Shown piece after piece: positions 4,971-60,674 of a stretch of 64,000 nucleotides of DNA. The notes under the pieces are model-generated. The model searched no databases. It saw only the letters and a program-made list of their open reading frames with translations, and was not told the origin of the DNA. The position numbers were made by a program, and so were the translations under genes. The stretch covers positions 186,001 through 250,000 of the forward strand of contig JAJDTU010000005.1 in the NCBI GenBank assembly GCA_022826965.1, read 5' to 3'. Source of the DNA: Dehalococcoidia bacterium (GTDB lineage: Bacteria; Chloroflexota; Dehalococcoidia; Bin125). Numbering within the stretch: position 1 is the first letter of the stretch; every line of letters begins with the position of its first letter.

Positions 4971-5960
4971 TCAGATCGCCTGAGGGGCGTTCTGGTAGGT
5001 CGGCACTCCGACCTCGTCGAAGATTTCGTTGATTCCGGTTCGGATCTCTTCGTTCAGTTTCCAGTCGGTGGCGGCGACGTTTTCCTCGAGTTCACGCTCG
5101 TTTCTCATGCCGACGAGCGCGCAGGAGACAGCGGGATGGTCGAGGACCCAGGCGAGGGCAAGCTGGGCGACGGTCTTGTTGTACCCGTCCGCGAGCTCGA
5201 CCAGGCGGTTAGTGACTTCGACCTCCTTGCGGAAGTGCTCTTCCTGGAACAGCGGCAGGTTGAAGGCCATGCCGCTGCGTCGCCAGTCGCCCTCCTCGAA
5301 CGTCGTCTCGGGAGTGAAGGCGCCGGTCAGCAAGCCAAAGCCGAGCGAACCGTACGCCATGTAGCCGACCCCGTTGGCCAGGCACCACGGCAGCACGCGC
5401 GATTCCATCCGCCGGTCGTACATGTTGTAACCGACCTGGTTGGCGGCGATGTGGCCGTACCGCTCGCACTCCTCCATCATGTCGATGTTGAAGTTCGAGA
5501 CGCCGTACTCGCGAATCTTGCCGCTTTGCTTGAGCTCCTCGAGGCCCTCCATCGTCTCCTCGATCGGCGTGTCGTGATCGGGCCAGTGGATCAGCATCAG
5601 GTCGACGAAATCGGTGTTGAGCCGCCTCAGGCAGTCCTCGGTGTGCTGAATGATGTGGCCCTTTTTCGAGTTGCGCCCAATCACCTTGGGCGTGTCGTCG
5701 TAATCGAACCCAACCTTGGTCACAAGGACGATGTCGTCGCGCCGATTGCCCAGCGCCTTGGCCAACAACTCCTCGGAGTGATACGGGCCGTAGACCTCGG
5801 CCGTGTCGAACAGCGTGATCCCGCGGTCGATCGCCATGTTGACGGCGCGGGCGGCCTCATCGACATCGATGTGGCCGTACATCGTGGTGCTCATCTCCCA
5901 GGTGCCGAAGCCCACCGCCGAGGCCACCAGGTCCGTGTTGCCGAATCGTCGTTGTTCCAT
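4971..5960 (-). CDS. Aldo/keto reductase, tandem paralogue 2
   Basis: A 329-residue aldo/keto reductase with the same architecture as its neighbours and the tetrad Asp52, Tyr57, Lys82, His125 conserved. The C-terminus is shorter than in the other copies, ending shortly after PTYQNAPQ. AAGGA lies 8 bases before the ATG. The gap to copy 1 is only 25 bases, so the two are probably one transcript. Substrate specificity between copies may differ through the loop after the YGPYHSEE segment and the C-terminal tail, but this cannot be read from sequence alone. Confidence 0.9.
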   Translation of the reverse strand: MEQRRFGNTDLVASAVGFGTWEMSTTMYGHIDVDEAARAVNMAIDRGITLFDTAEVYGPYHSEELLAKALGNRRDDIVLVTKVGFDYDDTPKVIGRNSKKGHIIQHTEDCLRRLNTDFVDLMLIHWPDHDTPIEETMEGLEELKQSGKIREYGVSNFNIDMMEECERYGHIAANQVGYNMYDRRMESRVLPWCLANGVGYMAYGSLGFGLLTGAFTPETTFEEGDWRRSGMAFNLPLFQEEHFRKEVEVTNRLVELADGYNKTVAQLALAWVLDHPAVSCALVGMRNERELEENVAATDWKLNEEIRTGINEIFDEVGVPTYQNAPQAI

Positions 5961-9696: not shown

Positions 9697-9924
9697 GTGG
9701 GCATTTCAGAAGTTCTCAACGTCATCCAGATCCTGGTCGCACTGACCGTGATCGCGGCTGTGATCCTGCAGGCCAAGGGCGCGGGACTGGGGAACATCTT
9801 CGGCGGCGTCGGGGCCGAGTCCTCGTACCGCACCCGCCGCGGCCTCGAGCGCTCGCTGTTTCGCGGGACCATCGTCCTGATGCTGGTCTTCGTCGGACTC
9901 AGCATCGCCGCGACCCAGGTCTGA
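9697..9924 (+). CDS. secG: Protein-export membrane protein SecG
   Basis: A 75-residue SecG, the small third subunit of the SecYEG translocon. Two membrane segments are visible: one near the N-terminus (ILVALTVIAAVILQ) and one at the C-terminus (TIVLMLVFVGLSIAA). They are joined by the family's Gly-rich cytosolic loop containing GAGLGNIFGG. It uses a GTG start at 9697; no ribosome site is seen, and a TACAAC sequence ends 6 bases upstream. It lies between yvcK and fmt with gaps of about 30 bases. Confidence 0.93.
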   Translation: MGISEVLNVIQILVALTVIAAVILQAKGAGLGNIFGGVGAESSYRTRRGLERSLFRGTIVLMLVFVGLSIAATQV

Positions 9925-55218: not shown

Positions 55219-55940
55219 CCCGACACGCCTCGCGCCGGATCGGTCGCGCGCTCGCTGAAGTCGCGTTGGCCATCGCGCTCTTCACGCTGCCGGTCGCATT
55301 TACTGTTCGCTATGCGACCACATCGGCCTCATGGTGGGAGCGGGGCTTTGAGCGCTATGACGCCACGGGTCGGACCGGCCTGACCCAGGACGAAGTGCTC
55401 AGGGTCGCGAAGGAAACTCGCGATTACCTGACCAACGACGAGGAACGCCTGGACGTCGAGGGGTCGGGGACGCCGTTCTACAGCGAGCGAGAGATCCTGC
55501 ACATGGTCGACGTCAAGCGACTGATGGCTCGCACATTCGACGCCGGCTGGGCGGCGCTGGGGTTCATCATTGCCTTCGTGGCGCTGACGGCCTGGCGCAA
55601 TCGAGGCGACGCGATGTCCGCGTTGGCCCGTTCGACGCTGTCGGCCTGCGGGGTCGTTGCGCTATTGGTGGTCGTCCTGGGGATCATCGGAATCAGCGGA
55701 TTCGACTCCGCGTTCCGCAACTTCCACCTGCTGTTCTTCACCAACGATCTGTGGCAACTGAGCTCGCGCGACGGCTTGATCCAGCTCTTTCCCCAGCGCT
55801 TCTTCTTCGACACGACGCTACTGATAGGCGGCGTGACACTGATCTTCGTCGTCGCCGTAGGCGCGTTGTCAGCCACTCATCTGTGGCGGCAGCGTCGAGG
55901 AAGTCGGCTCAATCGCAATCAGGAGTCCGGCGCTTCGTAG
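55206..55940 (+). CDS. DUF1461 (TIGR01906) integral membrane protein
   Basis: A 244-residue membrane protein of the TIGR01906/DUF1461 family, whose function is unknown. Four membrane segments are visible (about residues 16-35, 108-125, 140-165 and 200-225). The external loop carries the family motif FYSEREILHMVDVKRLM, and the second loop carries FHLLFFTNDLWQL and LIQLFPQRFFFDT. The ATG at 55206 abuts the MazG start on the opposite strand. Its end overlaps the Cache protein gene by 22 bases. Confidence 0.87.
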   Translation: MNRIARHASRRIGRALAEVALAIALFTLPVAFTVRYATTSASWWERGFERYDATGRTGLTQDEVLRVAKETRDYLTNDEERLDVEGSGTPFYSEREILHMVDVKRLMARTFDAGWAALGFIIAFVALTAWRNRGDAMSALARSTLSACGVVALLVVVLGIIGISGFDSAFRNFHLLFFTNDLWQLSSRDGLIQLFPQRFFFDTTLLIGGVTLIFVVAVGALSATHLWRQRRGSRLNRNQESGAS

Positions 55941-57418
55941 GCGCCCGGTTCATACCACCCTGCGGCGAACAGCAATCCATCGTGGCGCACAATCCAGGTG
56001 TGCTTCCGCCCCTGCTCTCCGGTGTCCGGATTCTCGAACACGTAGCTCACCCAACCGCGATCCTCGACCGCGACGATGTCCGCCCGAAAGTCGTAGCCCG
56101 TGACGTCCGGGCCGCCATCGAGGATGTTCTCACCCAGCGGCAGGAATGGATGCGCGAGCCGCGTGCCGTCCGAGCCGATGATGATCACATACCACTCACC
56201 GTCCACGCTCTCCGACGAGCTGTAGTAATCGACCGCCGCTTCCCGCCCCTCGGCCTCGTAACGATCGATCGCGGTCTGCACCAGAGCCCTCGCGTAACTG
56301 GCCGGATCCTCCTCGGAGAGGTCGTAGTTGCGGTCGTACCAGCCCGAGCCAATCACCAGGCCATCCTGCCGCACGATCCAGCTGTGCTTGCGCTGGTAGT
56401 GCAGCTCGGCGTCGGGATTGGGGAAGACGTATGAGATCCAACCGCTCGGGTCGATGGCCAGCGTGTCGGCGGTGTAGTCGTATCCCGTGACATCAATGCC
56501 CGTTCCGTGCAGGTTGCTGCCCAGCCACCCGGGACGCTCGGCACGAGCGCCGTTCACCAGGCGGGTGCCGTCCACGCTGTGGATGAAGAGGTACCATTCG
56601 CCGTCGATGCTCTCCGGCGAGTTGTAGTACTCAAACGTCGCCTCGCGCCCCAGCACCCGGTACAACTCCAGCGCTCGCTCCACGTAAGACTGGGTGAATG
56701 CGCCGGGAGCGTGAATCTTCGACGGACCATCCTCGTACCAGCCCGACCCGAAGATCAGACCATCGTGTCGCACCACCCAGGAGTGTTTGATCTGAACGCG
56801 ACCCAGGGCCGGATTGTTGAACTGGTAGTCGACCCAGGCCCCGTCGGCGCTGGCAACGGCAACCACCATGTGCCCGACCGGATATCCATCGGGGCCACTG
56901 GCTTCGGCGGCCGTGTTGCCAACCAGGTCCGGGTTGCGATTGGCGACCAGCACGTCATCCTCATCGAAGATGAACATGTACCACTGCCCGTCCACGCTCT
57001 CGGGCGAGTTGTAGTAGGCCAGCATTGCGTCCCGACCGTCGCGCTCATATCGGCTGATCGCCTCGGCGACGTAGAACTGCGTGTACCTCGCAGGCTCCGA
57101 GACATCCGGTTCCTCGACATGCCCGCTGACGCTGAACGTGTTGCTGGAGTACCAGCGCCCAGGGTCGGGGTCTCCGGGAAGGAATCGGGCATCGGGCGTG
57201 TGACTCAGCCAATCACTACCGTCGACGCTGGACTGCGCCCGCACCTCGACGCGCCCGTCATCGGTCTGCCGAGCCTGGACCCGCACGTCGATCTCGCCGT
57301 CCCCGTGGTTGCCTGATGCGGCAAAGTCGAGCTGCACGATTCCGCTGGCCAGTACTGCCGCGACGACGGCGCCGGCGAGCAGAACTCCCGCAACCAGGAG
57401 CCTGATGCTGCTGTTCAT
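55919..57418 (-). CDS. Secreted or membrane-anchored protein with three tandem Cache-like domains
   Basis: A 499-residue extracellular protein. The N-terminal hydrophobic segment (LLVAGVLLAGAVVAAVLASG, residues 7-26) is a signal or anchor. Three repeated units follow at about residues 110-225, 235-350 and 360-485. Each has a helix with a G/E-R-D/E-A motif, a YYNSPESVDGxWY (or YYSSSESVDGEWY) segment, a beta-hairpin DGTRL, and the end motif KHSWVVRHDGL..GSGWY. This matches Cache (ligand-sensing PAS-like) units. No cytoplasmic signalling domain is present. AGGA lies 6 bases before ATG 57418. The ligand is unknown. Confidence 0.82.
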   Translation of the reverse strand: MNSSIRLLVAGVLLAGAVVAAVLASGIVQLDFAASGNHGDGEIDVRVQARQTDDGRVEVRAQSSVDGSDWLSHTPDARFLPGDPDPGRWYSSNTFSVSGHVEEPDVSEPARYTQFYVAEAISRYERDGRDAMLAYYNSPESVDGQWYMFIFDEDDVLVANRNPDLVGNTAAEASGPDGYPVGHMVVAVASADGAWVDYQFNNPALGRVQIKHSWVVRHDGLIFGSGWYEDGPSKIHAPGAFTQSYVERALELYRVLGREATFEYYNSPESIDGEWYLFIHSVDGTRLVNGARAERPGWLGSNLHGTGIDVTGYDYTADTLAIDPSGWISYVFPNPDAELHYQRKHSWIVRQDGLVIGSGWYDRNYDLSEEDPASYARALVQTAIDRYEAEGREAAVDYYSSSESVDGEWYVIIIGSDGTRLAHPFLPLGENILDGGPDVTGYDFRADIVAVEDRGWVSYVFENPDTGEQGRKHTWIVRHDGLLFAAGWYEPGAYEAPDS

Positions 57419-57482
57419 CTGTGGTCCTAAACGCTGATTGATAGATAAGAGGGAATCGCGCGCTCTGCGCGCGTACAAATCG

Positions 57483-57737
57483 CTAGTTGAGCCCGCCCAT
57501 CCCGCCGCCGCCGCACCCACAGGAGCCGCGACCGCAGGCGCAGCCGCCCCCTGAGGGCATCTGCTCCGCCGCTTCCATCTGAGAGAACTCTCCGGCGACG
57601 GTCACAACCGCCGCCGTCAGTACCTTCTGCGCCACCTCGCCGCAGTGGCATTCGTACGGTTCTGCGGCCGCGCTCATCGGCCGCAGCTTGGTGAACTTCT
57701 CGTTGCAGGTGCGGCAGTAGTACTCGTACATCGGCAT
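57483..57737 (-). CDS. FmdB-type zinc-ribbon protein with Cys/Gly-rich tail
   Basis: An 84-residue FmdB/CxxC-CxxC family regulator-like protein. It begins MPMYEYYCRTCNEKFTKLRPM, with a second CxC ligand pair in YECHCGEVAQKV; normally this ribbon binds zinc. The tail GGGCACGRGSCGCGGGGMGG adds six Cys. GGAG lies 8 bases before ATG 57737. FmdB-like proteins are linked to amidase or formamidase gene control in some bacteria; the role here is not known. A second in-frame Met at residue 3 is possible. Confidence 0.83.
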   Translation of the reverse strand: MPMYEYYCRTCNEKFTKLRPMSAAAEPYECHCGEVAQKVLTAAVVTVAGEFSQMEAAEQMPSGGGCACGRGSCGCGGGGMGGLN

Positions 57738-57830: not shown

Positions 57831-57905
57831 CCCCCCGTAGCTCAGGGGATAGAGCACCGGTTTCCTAAACCGCGCGCGGAGGTTCGATTCCTCCCGGGGG
57901 GACCA
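57831..57905 (+). tRNA. tRNA-Arg, anticodon CCT
   Basis: A complete 75-base tRNA including an encoded CCA end. The 7-bp acceptor stem CCCCCCG/CGGGGGG, D-stem GCTC/GAGC, anticodon stem CCGGT/ACCGC (outermost pair mismatched), anticodon CCT in the loop TTCCTAA and T-stem GGAGG/CCTCC with TTCGATT loop all fold. The anticodon reads AGG. Discriminator base A. It reads away from the FmdB gene and toward the zinc-binding gene, with a strong hairpin about 70 bases downstream. Confidence 0.95.
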
Positions 57906-58040: not shown

Positions 58041-60473
58041 CTATTGCTCGGCGATCGCCCGCGCGTTTCCAAGCAGGATGCCGAGATAGGTTGGGTTCTC
58101 CTCGGTCGGCTGCGACCAGATGATGCCCCGATGGGCGCCGGTCTCCGACGCGACCGTATCGAGCGATGAAGAGTCGAACTGCGGCTCGTGGAACACCGTT
58201 TCCACGCCTTCATGTTCGATCAGCTCAATCAGCTGGGCAATCGATTCGGCGCTGATCCCCTGCTCCGGTCCTTCGATCAGGAATCCCACGATCTCCAGGC
58301 CGTAGCGACGCGCAAAGTAGGCGAATGCGTCGTGGAACGTGACCAACAGACGCTGATTAGCCGGCACGCTCTCGATCAACGCGCGCGCCTCGGCGTCCGC
58401 TGCCTCAATCTCGGCGAGATAGAGGTCAAGGCGGTCGCTGAAGACGTCCGCGTCGTCCGGGTTCAGGGCGCTCAGTTCATCGGCAATCGCCGCGATGGCG
58501 ACGGAGGCGAGATCGGCGTCGAACCAGAAGTGCGGATCCTCGGAGCCGTGATGGTGGTGTCCGTGATCATCGCCCTCCTCTTCGTGTTCGTCGTCCTCGT
58601 GTCCGTGCTCATCCTCTTCGTGTTCGTCCTCCTCGTGTCCGTGCTCATCCTCTTCGTGCTCGTCCTCTTCGTGACCGTGCTCGTCCTCTTCATCTTCGTC
58701 GTGATCGGCATGGGGAGCCCCGTCGCTGTCGGTCACACCGACGAAGGCCAGGCTCGACGGCGCGCCGCCGACGTGCCACTCCTCTTCGATCTCCATGTGT
58801 GTGAGATGGACCCCCAGCACATGACCGCTGTTCGGGTCCGCGACGTACATCATGTCGCCAACGACGATGATTGCCGGCCGCCCGGCCTCGCCCGGTTCGA
58901 CCAGCTTCGCGGTCTCGAGCAGTTCGCCATCGTGCGCGTCGAGCGCGTGCAGCACTCCGTCAGCTCCGAGCACGTAGAAGATCTCGCCGTCGCTCGCGAA
59001 CGCCACGCTGAAGCTCGGCTCGCTGAACACCTGCCGCATCTCGAGGTGAACGACATCGATCAGCCAGATGCCGTCGTCGGCGAAGCCTTGACCGTCGAAG
59101 TAGGAGGCCTTGCCGAAAAAGTGCTCGACGTGGTGATGGCCGTAGACGGAGCCAATCCGCGAATCCTCGCGCATCTCAGCTGGATTGTCGATGAACTCGT
59201 GCTCGTACTCGCCGTCGTGCGCGTGGAAGAAGAGCACCCCGCCGATGCAGCCAAAGGCTGCCCCGTGCTCGTTGTGCCCCTCGCCGTGCATGCCCGGGCA
59301 GGAACGATTGCTGGCGTCGTAGACCACTTCGTCGTCGAACGTGCGCACCTCGACGCCAACAGGCAACACATCCTCAGGGTCGTCGGGATTCTTGGTCGTG
59401 ACGACCACGTGGTCATCCGTCATAACCAACGCCGCGCCGTGCTGCGGCCCGGCCTCGAGCACGATCGGTTCGTAGTCGCCCTGGGTCGTAGAAAGGTCGT
59501 GTTCGTTGATCAGGATTACATGACCGCTGGTGTCGGCGAAGATCGCCGTCCAGCCGTGGCTGTTGACGTAGTGAATCGGGTTCTCTTCGACAATCTCGAG
59601 CGAGTGCCGGGAAACGGGCTCGGTGACCAGGTCGTAGTGGTCTCCATGCTCGACGAGGTAGACGCCGCCGTCGAAGATGTGCACTCGATCGTCGCCGTCT
59701 TCGGGACCGCGAGCGAGGACGACGCCGTAACGGTGCGTCGGACTCGGCAGCACGCGAGCGCGCGGCGCGGCAATCTCGAATAGGCCACTGTTCACTTCCT
59801 CGGTCGACAGATCGATGACCGAGAGGTGCGCTTCCAGCGCGTCCGCGACGATCAATCGACCGACGGCGTGAGCCTCCCCGTGCTCGTCCTCGTGCATCTC
59901 CTCGTCGTCGTGACCGTGCTCGTCCTCGCCCATGAGCGCGCCGAACGCCAACAGCTCATGTCCGGCCTCTTCGATCGCTTCAGCCAGGTCGAGAACGTAC
60001 GTGGCATTCTCCTCGATCACATCGATATAGGCCGATTCGAGTCCCGCTCCGTTGATGATCACGATGTCGGCGTCCGCGATCGCGCGGATGTCCGACACGG
60101 TCAGCTCAAGGATGTGCGCGTCCGCTCCCGCCGGGACCAGCGCGCGCACGTTGACCCGGTCGCCTCCGATCTGGCGGACCCAGTCCGCGATCACCTGCGT
60201 CGAGACCACGACGTTCAGCGGCTCAGCGGACACCGCCTGTGGTTGGGTTTGTTGTTCCTGCTGCTGCTGTTGCGTCGTCGCTGCTCGCGACGGCGCAGCC
60301 GCTTCGCGTTCCTGCTGCTGGTCCTGAGCCTGTTGCTCTGCAGCCGCAGTCTGTTGTTGCTGCGATTGAGTCTGCTGTTGCTGTTGGTCGTCGTCGGAAC
60401 AGCCGACGACCAGGGCAGCCGACAGCGACAACGCCATGAGGGCGCCGAGCGCCCCTTTGAAGAACCGGGACAT
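58041..60473 (-). CDS. Zinc-binding lipoprotein: ZnuA/AztC receptor split by an AztD-like beta-propeller
   Basis: An 810-residue lipoprotein; ordinary ZnuA is about 300. Signal peptide with lipobox VVGC (Cys25), then a Gln-rich linker to residue 85. The ZnuA N-lobe spans about 86-172 (NVVVSTQVIADWVRQIGGD; metal His120 in GADAH). Residues about 203-580 form a beta-propeller like the AztD zinc chaperone: paired Cys392 (CPGMHGE) and Cys409 (AFGC), and repeated HxH-type segments. A His/Asp/Glu-rich 12-residue repeat (597-632) leads to the C-lobe with His648 (DPHFWFD), His714 (VTFHDAF) and a final lobe to 810. The fourth ligand Asp of ZnuA (LDPL) is not seen; the stretch reads IIWSQP. No ABC permease or ATPase is adjacent. 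Confidence 0.85.
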   Translation of the reverse strand: MSRFFKGALGALMALSLSAALVVGCSDDDQQQQQTQSQQQQTAAAEQQAQDQQQEREAAAPSRAATTQQQQQEQQTQPQAVSAEPLNVVVSTQVIADWVRQIGGDRVNVRALVPAGADAHILELTVSDIRAIADADIVIINGAGLESAYIDVIEENATYVLDLAEAIEEAGHELLAFGALMGEDEHGHDDEEMHEDEHGEAHAVGRLIVADALEAHLSVIDLSTEEVNSGLFEIAAPRARVLPSPTHRYGVVLARGPEDGDDRVHIFDGGVYLVEHGDHYDLVTEPVSRHSLEIVEENPIHYVNSHGWTAIFADTSGHVILINEHDLSTTQGDYEPIVLEAGPQHGAALVMTDDHVVVTTKNPDDPEDVLPVGVEVRTFDDEVVYDASNRSCPGMHGEGHNEHGAAFGCIGGVLFFHAHDGEYEHEFIDNPAEMREDSRIGSVYGHHHVEHFFGKASYFDGQGFADDGIWLIDVVHLEMRQVFSEPSFSVAFASDGEIFYVLGADGVLHALDAHDGELLETAKLVEPGEAGRPAIIVVGDMMYVADPNSGHVLGVHLTHMEIEEEWHVGGAPSSLAFVGVTDSDGAPHADHDEDEEDEHGHEEDEHEEDEHGHEEDEHEEDEHGHEDDEHEEEGDDHGHHHHGSEDPHFWFDADLASVAIAAIADELSALNPDDADVFSDRLDLYLAEIEAADAEARALIESVPANQRLLVTFHDAFAYFARRYGLEIVGFLIEGPEQGISAESIAQLIELIEHEGVETVFHEPQFDSSSLDTVASETGAHRGIIWSQPTEENPTYLGILLGNARAIAEQ
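58578..58685 (-). repeat. Three 36-bp tandem repeats encoding a metal-binding linker
   Basis: Three copies of the 12-residue unit DEHGHEEDEHEE (the third reads DEHGHEDDEHEE), encoded by nearly identical 36-bp DNA units at residues 597-632 of the zinc-binding lipoprotein. They add at least nine His in an acidic context, and sit at the place of the His-rich loop of normal ZnuA. Such a repeat may change in copy number between strains. Confidence 0.85.
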
Positions 60474-60547
60474 TGAGAAATCGATCTAGGCGGACTGTGT
60501 GCTCTCAGTGGCCTGTCCGCAAGGCCTTCACGACGCCCTGGTGGTGA

Positions 60548-60560
60548 TCACGGGCCGTGA
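60548..60560. promoter_or_regulatory. Palindromic site upstream of the zinc-binding gene
   Basis: TCACGG-G-CCGTGA is a perfect 6-bp inverted repeat, overlapped by the 8-bp palindrome GTGATCAC at 60544-60551. It lies about 75 bases upstream of the ATG at 60473 within the 201-bp gap to the amidase gene. It does not match a Zur or Fur consensus known to me. Confidence 0.35.
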
Positions 60561-60674
60561 CGCGCTTTCAGACCTTCATCAGCCTCCCGTCCAGTCCTCT
60601 CAGGAACTTAGCACCCGTCACGCCTATGGGCTGGCGCCCCGCCCGTCCAACCCCTGTTCACACCCATGCCGCCG

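Follow-up and report, generated by a model that had tools for sequence, protein, structure and literature searches.

A metal receptor of the ZnuA/AztC type split by a complete AztD-like propeller in a Dehalococcoidia lipoprotein

In the AztABCD system of Paracoccus denitrificans an AztC-like receptor and an AztD propeller are separate proteins that meet only transiently (PMC6689063, PMC7463823, PMC7731109), and AztC and AztD are usually encoded by genes of their own, as in Phyllobacterium, Deinococcus and Thermus. The window analyzed here, by which we mean the whole 64-kb stretch of DNA, contains one gene in which both types of protein appear within a single lipoprotein, with the propeller nested in the receptor. 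This raises the question of whether such a frame is a genuine gene, and if so, what a receptor might gain from carrying a metallochaperone in its own chain. The relevant features, in window coordinates and residues of the encoded protein, are as follows:

58041..60473, minus strand: the whole nested gene, encoding an 810-aa lipoprotein with the AztD-like propeller inside (ORF, Pfam, NCBIfam)
60225..60473, minus strand: residues 1-83, signal peptide and lipobox (VVGC, Cys25) followed by a Gln/Ala-rich linker (sequence)
59940..60224, minus strand: residues 84-178, receptor N-lobe with ligand His120 (first PF01297 stretch, alignments, model)
59862..59939, minus strand: residues 179-204, His/Asp/Glu-rich linker, the first half of the former D-loop (sequence, low pLDDT)
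58719..59861, minus strand: residues 205-585, AztD-like eight-bladed propeller (NF038015, 6cmk/6ck1, models, ligand table)
58545..58718, minus strand: residues 586-643, His/Asp/Glu-rich linker, in which His588 or His591 may stand for His408 of P. denitrificans AztD (PdAztD)
58044..58544, minus strand: residues 644-810, receptor C-lobe with ligands His648 and His714, and Gln788 at the position of AztC Asp279
59878..59927, no strand assigned: 50-nt direct repeat, the copy (82% identical), on the N-lobe side of the propeller
58639..58688, no strand assigned: 50-nt direct repeat, the reference copy, on the C-lobe side, so that the pair brackets the propeller
60507..60639 (ends approximate), minus strand: decayed 3' end of a bcp-type peroxiredoxin gene (blastn to the upstream region of a sibling gene)

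Pfam recovers the ZnuA domain (PF01297) in the window protein with E 1.8e-61, split into two stretches, and these halves flank a match to the NCBIfam AztD model NF038015 that occupies residues 209-578 and spans profile positions 1-354 of 356 (E 3.4e-41). This is the arrangement claimed by the original prediction, namely a zinc receptor and an AztD-like donor nested in one lipoprotein. Searches with phmmer also recovered the solved AztD chains 6cmk (E 2.6e-20) and 6ck1 (E 2e-18). The propeller score of 141 bits covers the full profile and lies below the 400-bit NCBIfam cut-off set for whole AztD; we accordingly file it as an AztD-like domain, apparently too divergent in sequence to bear the AztD name. 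The receptor part of the window protein scores 168 bits with the AztC model against an NCBIfam cut-off of 350 bits, and its relative in locus L020 reaches 251 bits. The propeller belongs to the receptor frame and is not a separate secreted protein as AztD is. A generic WD40 or PQQ propeller is rejected, with Pfam offering only a sub-threshold PQQ_2 match against the specific match to AztD. A chance arrangement is excluded, and a join of two genes during assembly has a practically negligible probability, as the frame is continuous and free of stops, and the same boundaries recur in 28 frames from 26 assemblies. It is therefore nearly certain that the window gene encodes a cluster A-I metal receptor of the ZnuA/AztC type which is split by a complete AztD-type propeller.

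Structural modeling bears on the identity of both parts. An AlphaFold2 model built from 19 nested proteins has a mean pLDDT of 76 and a pTM of 0.54, at which the placing of the propeller relative to the receptor is not reliably predicted. In this model residues 119-505 match AztD (6ck1) with Z 42.4 (rmsd 2.4 over 361 aligned residues), and residues 1-727 match the cluster A-I receptors MntC, TroA and AztC with Z 28-29. As the receptor match spans the insert, the two lobes together constitute one complete receptor. The propeller modeled alone (pTM 0.79) has Z 40.0 to AztD and only 24.0 to the next propeller, NirF; the insert as modeled is specifically AztD-like and no generic propeller. Domain searches and structure prediction thus both bear out the AztD-like insert of the original prediction, with an eight-bladed propeller lying between the lobes.

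The metal ligands of AztD are preserved in the nested propeller. In PdAztD site 1 is formed by His124, His167 and His218, site 2 by His99, His102, Asp104 and His408, and a disulfide links Cys214 and Cys231 (PMC6689063). The window propeller has the counterparts His301, His345 and His396 for site 1, His276, His279 and Asp281 for site 2 (with Gly277, in an HG.H.D motif), and the pair Cys392 and Cys409 for the disulfide; both cysteines, like the receptor ligands His120, His648 and His714, occupy the positions given by the original prediction. The C-terminal fourth ligand of site 2, His408, is present in 68% of homologues. Its candidate equivalents lie in a region of low pLDDT, where His588 (model residue 505) is the last residue aligned, opposite chain residue 408, and His591 is the better conserved of the two in the alignment of nested proteins. 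The AztD ligands and cysteines are complete in 26 of the 28 nested proteins, or in 22 if the glycine of the site-2 turn is also counted, since Asp replaces this glycine in L010, L059, L061 and L062, whose other AztD ligands are complete. They are likewise complete in four reference AztDs and in all the stand-alone relatives. The exceptions are L050 and L051, which lack a full site 1, L051 lacking one site-2 His as well; His276, His279 and Asp281 of site 2 are thereby retained in 27 of 28. The L050 and L051 propellers are divergent (34-36% identity) and both have Gln at the position of His396, making them natural site-1 mutants.

The three receptor histidines His120, His648 and His714 are invariant across the aligned nested proteins (the contig of L024 begins within the gene, so that its N-lobe is missing). 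The fourth ligand of AztC, Asp279, has no counterpart: its position is taken by Gln788 within an SQPT motif in the window protein and by Gly in other scaffolds. The same genome also encodes a bare sibling receptor, a 474-aa frame that is 63-69% identical over the matched parts and carries, instead of a propeller, a His/Asp/Gln-rich loop of about 150 residues. This sibling shares the SQPT motif, and an AztB-like permease gene lies no more than about 1 kb away from it. Hence, the missing Asp, correctly noted in the original prediction, characterizes this family of receptors and does not result from the insertion; neither can it be taken as the mark of a broken receptor.

The point of insertion suggests how the two parts might work together. 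The D-loop of AztC (residues 117-133), which directly precedes ligand His138, is essential for taking zinc from AztD; zinc is given only by AztD site 2; the slow association of AztD and AztC is the rate-limiting step of transfer; and the docking model has the D-loop entering the propeller channel and site 2 located at the cleft of the receptor (PMC6689063, PMC7463823). In the nested protein the propeller is inserted exactly at the D-loop, between the N-lobe and the His648 motif, and replaces it, so that the donor is tethered at the very docking site of the acceptor. Furthermore, site 2 of AztD is formed by a hairpin together with the strands at the N and C termini and would, in the nested form, adjoin the points at which the chain leaves and re-enters the receptor, which is our basis for proposing transfer within one molecule. 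Taken together, we believe that the protein is probably the lipoprotein-anchored receptor of an ABC importer for a metal, most likely zinc, with a built-in metallochaperone that hands zinc over internally. Under this proposal, the His/Asp/Glu linkers and site 2 of the propeller would first catch zinc; site 2, placed near the three-His site of the receptor, would then pass it on within the molecule; and the receptor, once loaded, would supply an AztB-type permease whose gene lies elsewhere in the genome. With donor and acceptor tethered, the slow association step that limits separate AztD and AztC would fall away. A point against the proposal is that P. denitrificans lacking AztD, in a znuA mutant background, suffers only a modest growth lag (PMC7731109).

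Alternatively, the propeller and the His-rich linkers might serve as a tethered zinc store or buffer that raises the local zinc concentration, with the receptor loading from solution. The bare siblings with a long His-rich loop in the same genus, including the permease-linked one in this genome, indicate that a simple metal sponge can be accommodated at this loop, and AztD of P. denitrificans has itself been proposed as a periplasmic zinc reservoir (PMC7731109). However, a store would account poorly for the retention of site 2, the sole transferring site of AztD, in nearly all nested proteins, or for insertion exactly at the transfer loop, and we consider it unlikely. We infer that direct intramolecular hand-over of zinc is the best explanation.

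Nested receptors are not confined to the window genome. A scan of genome contigs yielded 32 relatives, of which 18 have a nested frame, one cut by a contig end, and whole-genome searches added nine further nested frames; the 26 assemblies with nested frames include Chloroflexota and Acidimicrobiia. Within the genus of the window genome 13 of 15 genomes have the nested gene. Among 400 genomes of the phylum AztD was detected at E 1e-15 in five, and all five matches lie in frames of 747-841 aa. In a plasmid collection 137 records matched, and in none did a single stretch cover 80% of the query. Nine loci (L017-L024 and L032) have genes for an ATPase and a permease downstream of the nested gene, the permease of L020 lying about 3 kb further on, and in L010, L012 and L016 the nested gene adjoins a permease gene. 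The ATPases and permeases scanned in these nested-gene operons have their top scores with the AztA/MntA and AztB models, respectively, and in L023 the nested gene overlaps the ATPase gene by 4 bp. Thus, in the related operons the nested protein is the receptor, its gene immediately preceding that of the ATPase. The original prediction that the gene stands alone holds for the window copy, which has no linked permease or ATPase gene, but not for these relatives.

This operon context also bears on the idea that the fusion merely anchors the AztD-like domain at the membrane, the propeller serving other receptors or proteins in trans. Such a role would sit well with an orphan window copy in a genome with two other receptors, and with the stand-alone and double-propeller AztDs of relatives (L025, L026, L028-L031). 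Nevertheless, it is very improbable given that in nine loci the ATPase and permease genes have the nested gene as their neighboring receptor gene and that the receptor's own ligands are intact. Among these propellers without a receptor, a 994-aa frame at L030:9125-12106 has two AztD-like propellers in tandem, and in L029 two stand-alone AztD genes lie side by side.

The upstream regions of the nested genes offer a candidate regulatory signal. A perfect Fur/Zur-type operator, TGATAATGATTATCA, lies just upstream of the nested gene in L023 and L032, and in L020 it occurs there with one mismatch; its chance expectation is 0.05-0.1 matches per locus. The motif is similar to the Streptomyces Zur operator of 7-1-7 form, TGAAAATGATTTTCA, and to the Zur sites of C. 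glutamicum (PMC2823685). Locus L019 has a different palindrome and no site of this type, and no match with up to three mismatches was found in the 64-kb window. In L023 the same perfect operator occurs twice, at 5157-5177 and 9834-9854, before a Peripla_BP_2/MatE/FecCD/ATPase cluster and before the nested receptor operon. The two may therefore be co-regulated, and, given the company of the Peripla_BP_2/FecCD cluster, a Fur site and regulation by iron are conceivable on the basis of the motif.

That the same nested architecture handles iron or manganese in place of zinc would be in line with this shared operator type. The receptor scores leave some room for it as well: the L020 lobes match the manganese model NF053842 (1.2e-73) and AztC (1.7e-74) alike, and the window protein scores higher with NF053842 than with AztC. 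On the other hand, the three-His site without Asp or Glu in the fourth position resembles that of 3His/water zinc receptors (PMC7731109), and the AztD ligands are known to bind zinc, making another metal rather improbable and zinc our preferred reading.

The lobes and the propeller appear to have had different histories. Compared with the window protein, L017-L019 have propellers that are 79-80% identical and lobes that are only about 35-41% identical; conversely, the lobes of L015 are 82-84% identical and its propeller 61%. In the lobe tree scaffold A and the bare siblings stand apart from scaffold B (with the L050/L051 pair, support 100/100) and from L027/L041, and the lobes reject a single clade of all nested rows (AU p 0.0005). 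The propeller tree in turn rejects scaffold A as one clade (AU p 1e-10), and also scaffold B plus L050/L051 (AU). These tests disfavor a single origin of the nested gene followed by plain inheritance, though long branches may add to the discord. The strong discordance between the trees makes the propeller look like an exchangeable cassette. It is flanked by the His/Asp/Glu-coding repeats listed above (82% identity over 50 nt, about 1.2 kb apart), and one may speculate that these serve in its exchange or loss. We see about an even chance that the AztD cassette was swapped repeatedly into the docking loops of several distinct receptor scaffolds, so that a relay within one chain took the place of a hand-over between two proteins, and that its renewed loss can leave behind a His-rich loop like that of the bare siblings. 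Counting such events is complicated by the long branches and possibly by gene conversion with the stand-alone AztD genes (L025, L026, L028, L029, L031).

The isolation of the window copy can be understood from its own surroundings. In the lobe tree it falls in a group of six nested genes (support 100/99). Upstream of the bare sibling lies an intact gene that, from its sequence, we name a bcp-type peroxiredoxin, and upstream of the window gene lies a decayed copy of this gene's end, with 74% identity over 242 nt to the sibling's upstream region (blastn). This indicates that the window gene was duplicated from a bcp-receptor-permease locus, and its being an orphan is explained by its being a duplicate. 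About 135 bases past the stop codon of the nested frame, on the opposite strand, a tRNA-Arg (CCT) gene occupies 57831-57905, and it may be next to this gene that the duplicate inserted. Beyond the tRNA, 55919-57520 encodes a secreted 533-aa protein with three tandem similar Cache-type units by eye (sCache_2 6.6e-12, dCache_2 7.6e-12), in which no signaling domain was found. Elsewhere the genome has a third receptor, in a complete operon, and two AztB/ZnuB permeases, one of them being that beside the bare sibling. An AztB-like permease gene at L042:7772-8902 is without an adjacent ATPase gene; among unlinked ATPase candidates in the genome, the best lies at G000:C12:151141-151878.

Among known systems, AztABCD is the closest, sharing the types of receptor and propeller, the zinc ligands and disulfide of AztD and, in the related operons, AztA- and AztB-like genes. 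It is distinguished by the separate AztD, nested here in the receptor D-loop, and by Asp279 of AztC. The nested receptor is thus a variant of the AztABCD kind, with an architecture that is close to certain. Streptococcal AdcA (ZnuA and ZinT; PMC7858048) likewise has a metallochaperone-like zinc domain on a cluster A-I receptor lipoprotein, but its ZinT has no relationship to AztD and follows the receptor end to end, leaving it uninterrupted. The group II ZnuAs have extra metal-binding sequence at the same loop in the form of a long His-rich stretch, much like the bare siblings; this loop is disordered, in contrast to the folded 380-residue propeller. The TIGR03772 model of anchored-repeat ABC receptors matches both lobes, the C-lobe at positions 309-482 of 486, implying that this family has extra sequence before its C-lobe, which could not, however, accommodate a propeller of 380 residues. 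In the open-access literature searched we found no account of an AztD nested within a receptor, and the original prediction likewise knew of no such case.

The brief encounters of donor and acceptor make direct transfer of metal between proteins difficult to study. To our knowledge, the AztD-AztC complex is known from docking alone. The nested protein provides a single-chain system for structure and kinetics, in which the donor is fixed at the docking loop of its acceptor, and the bare siblings and the receptors of different origin provide its natural controls.
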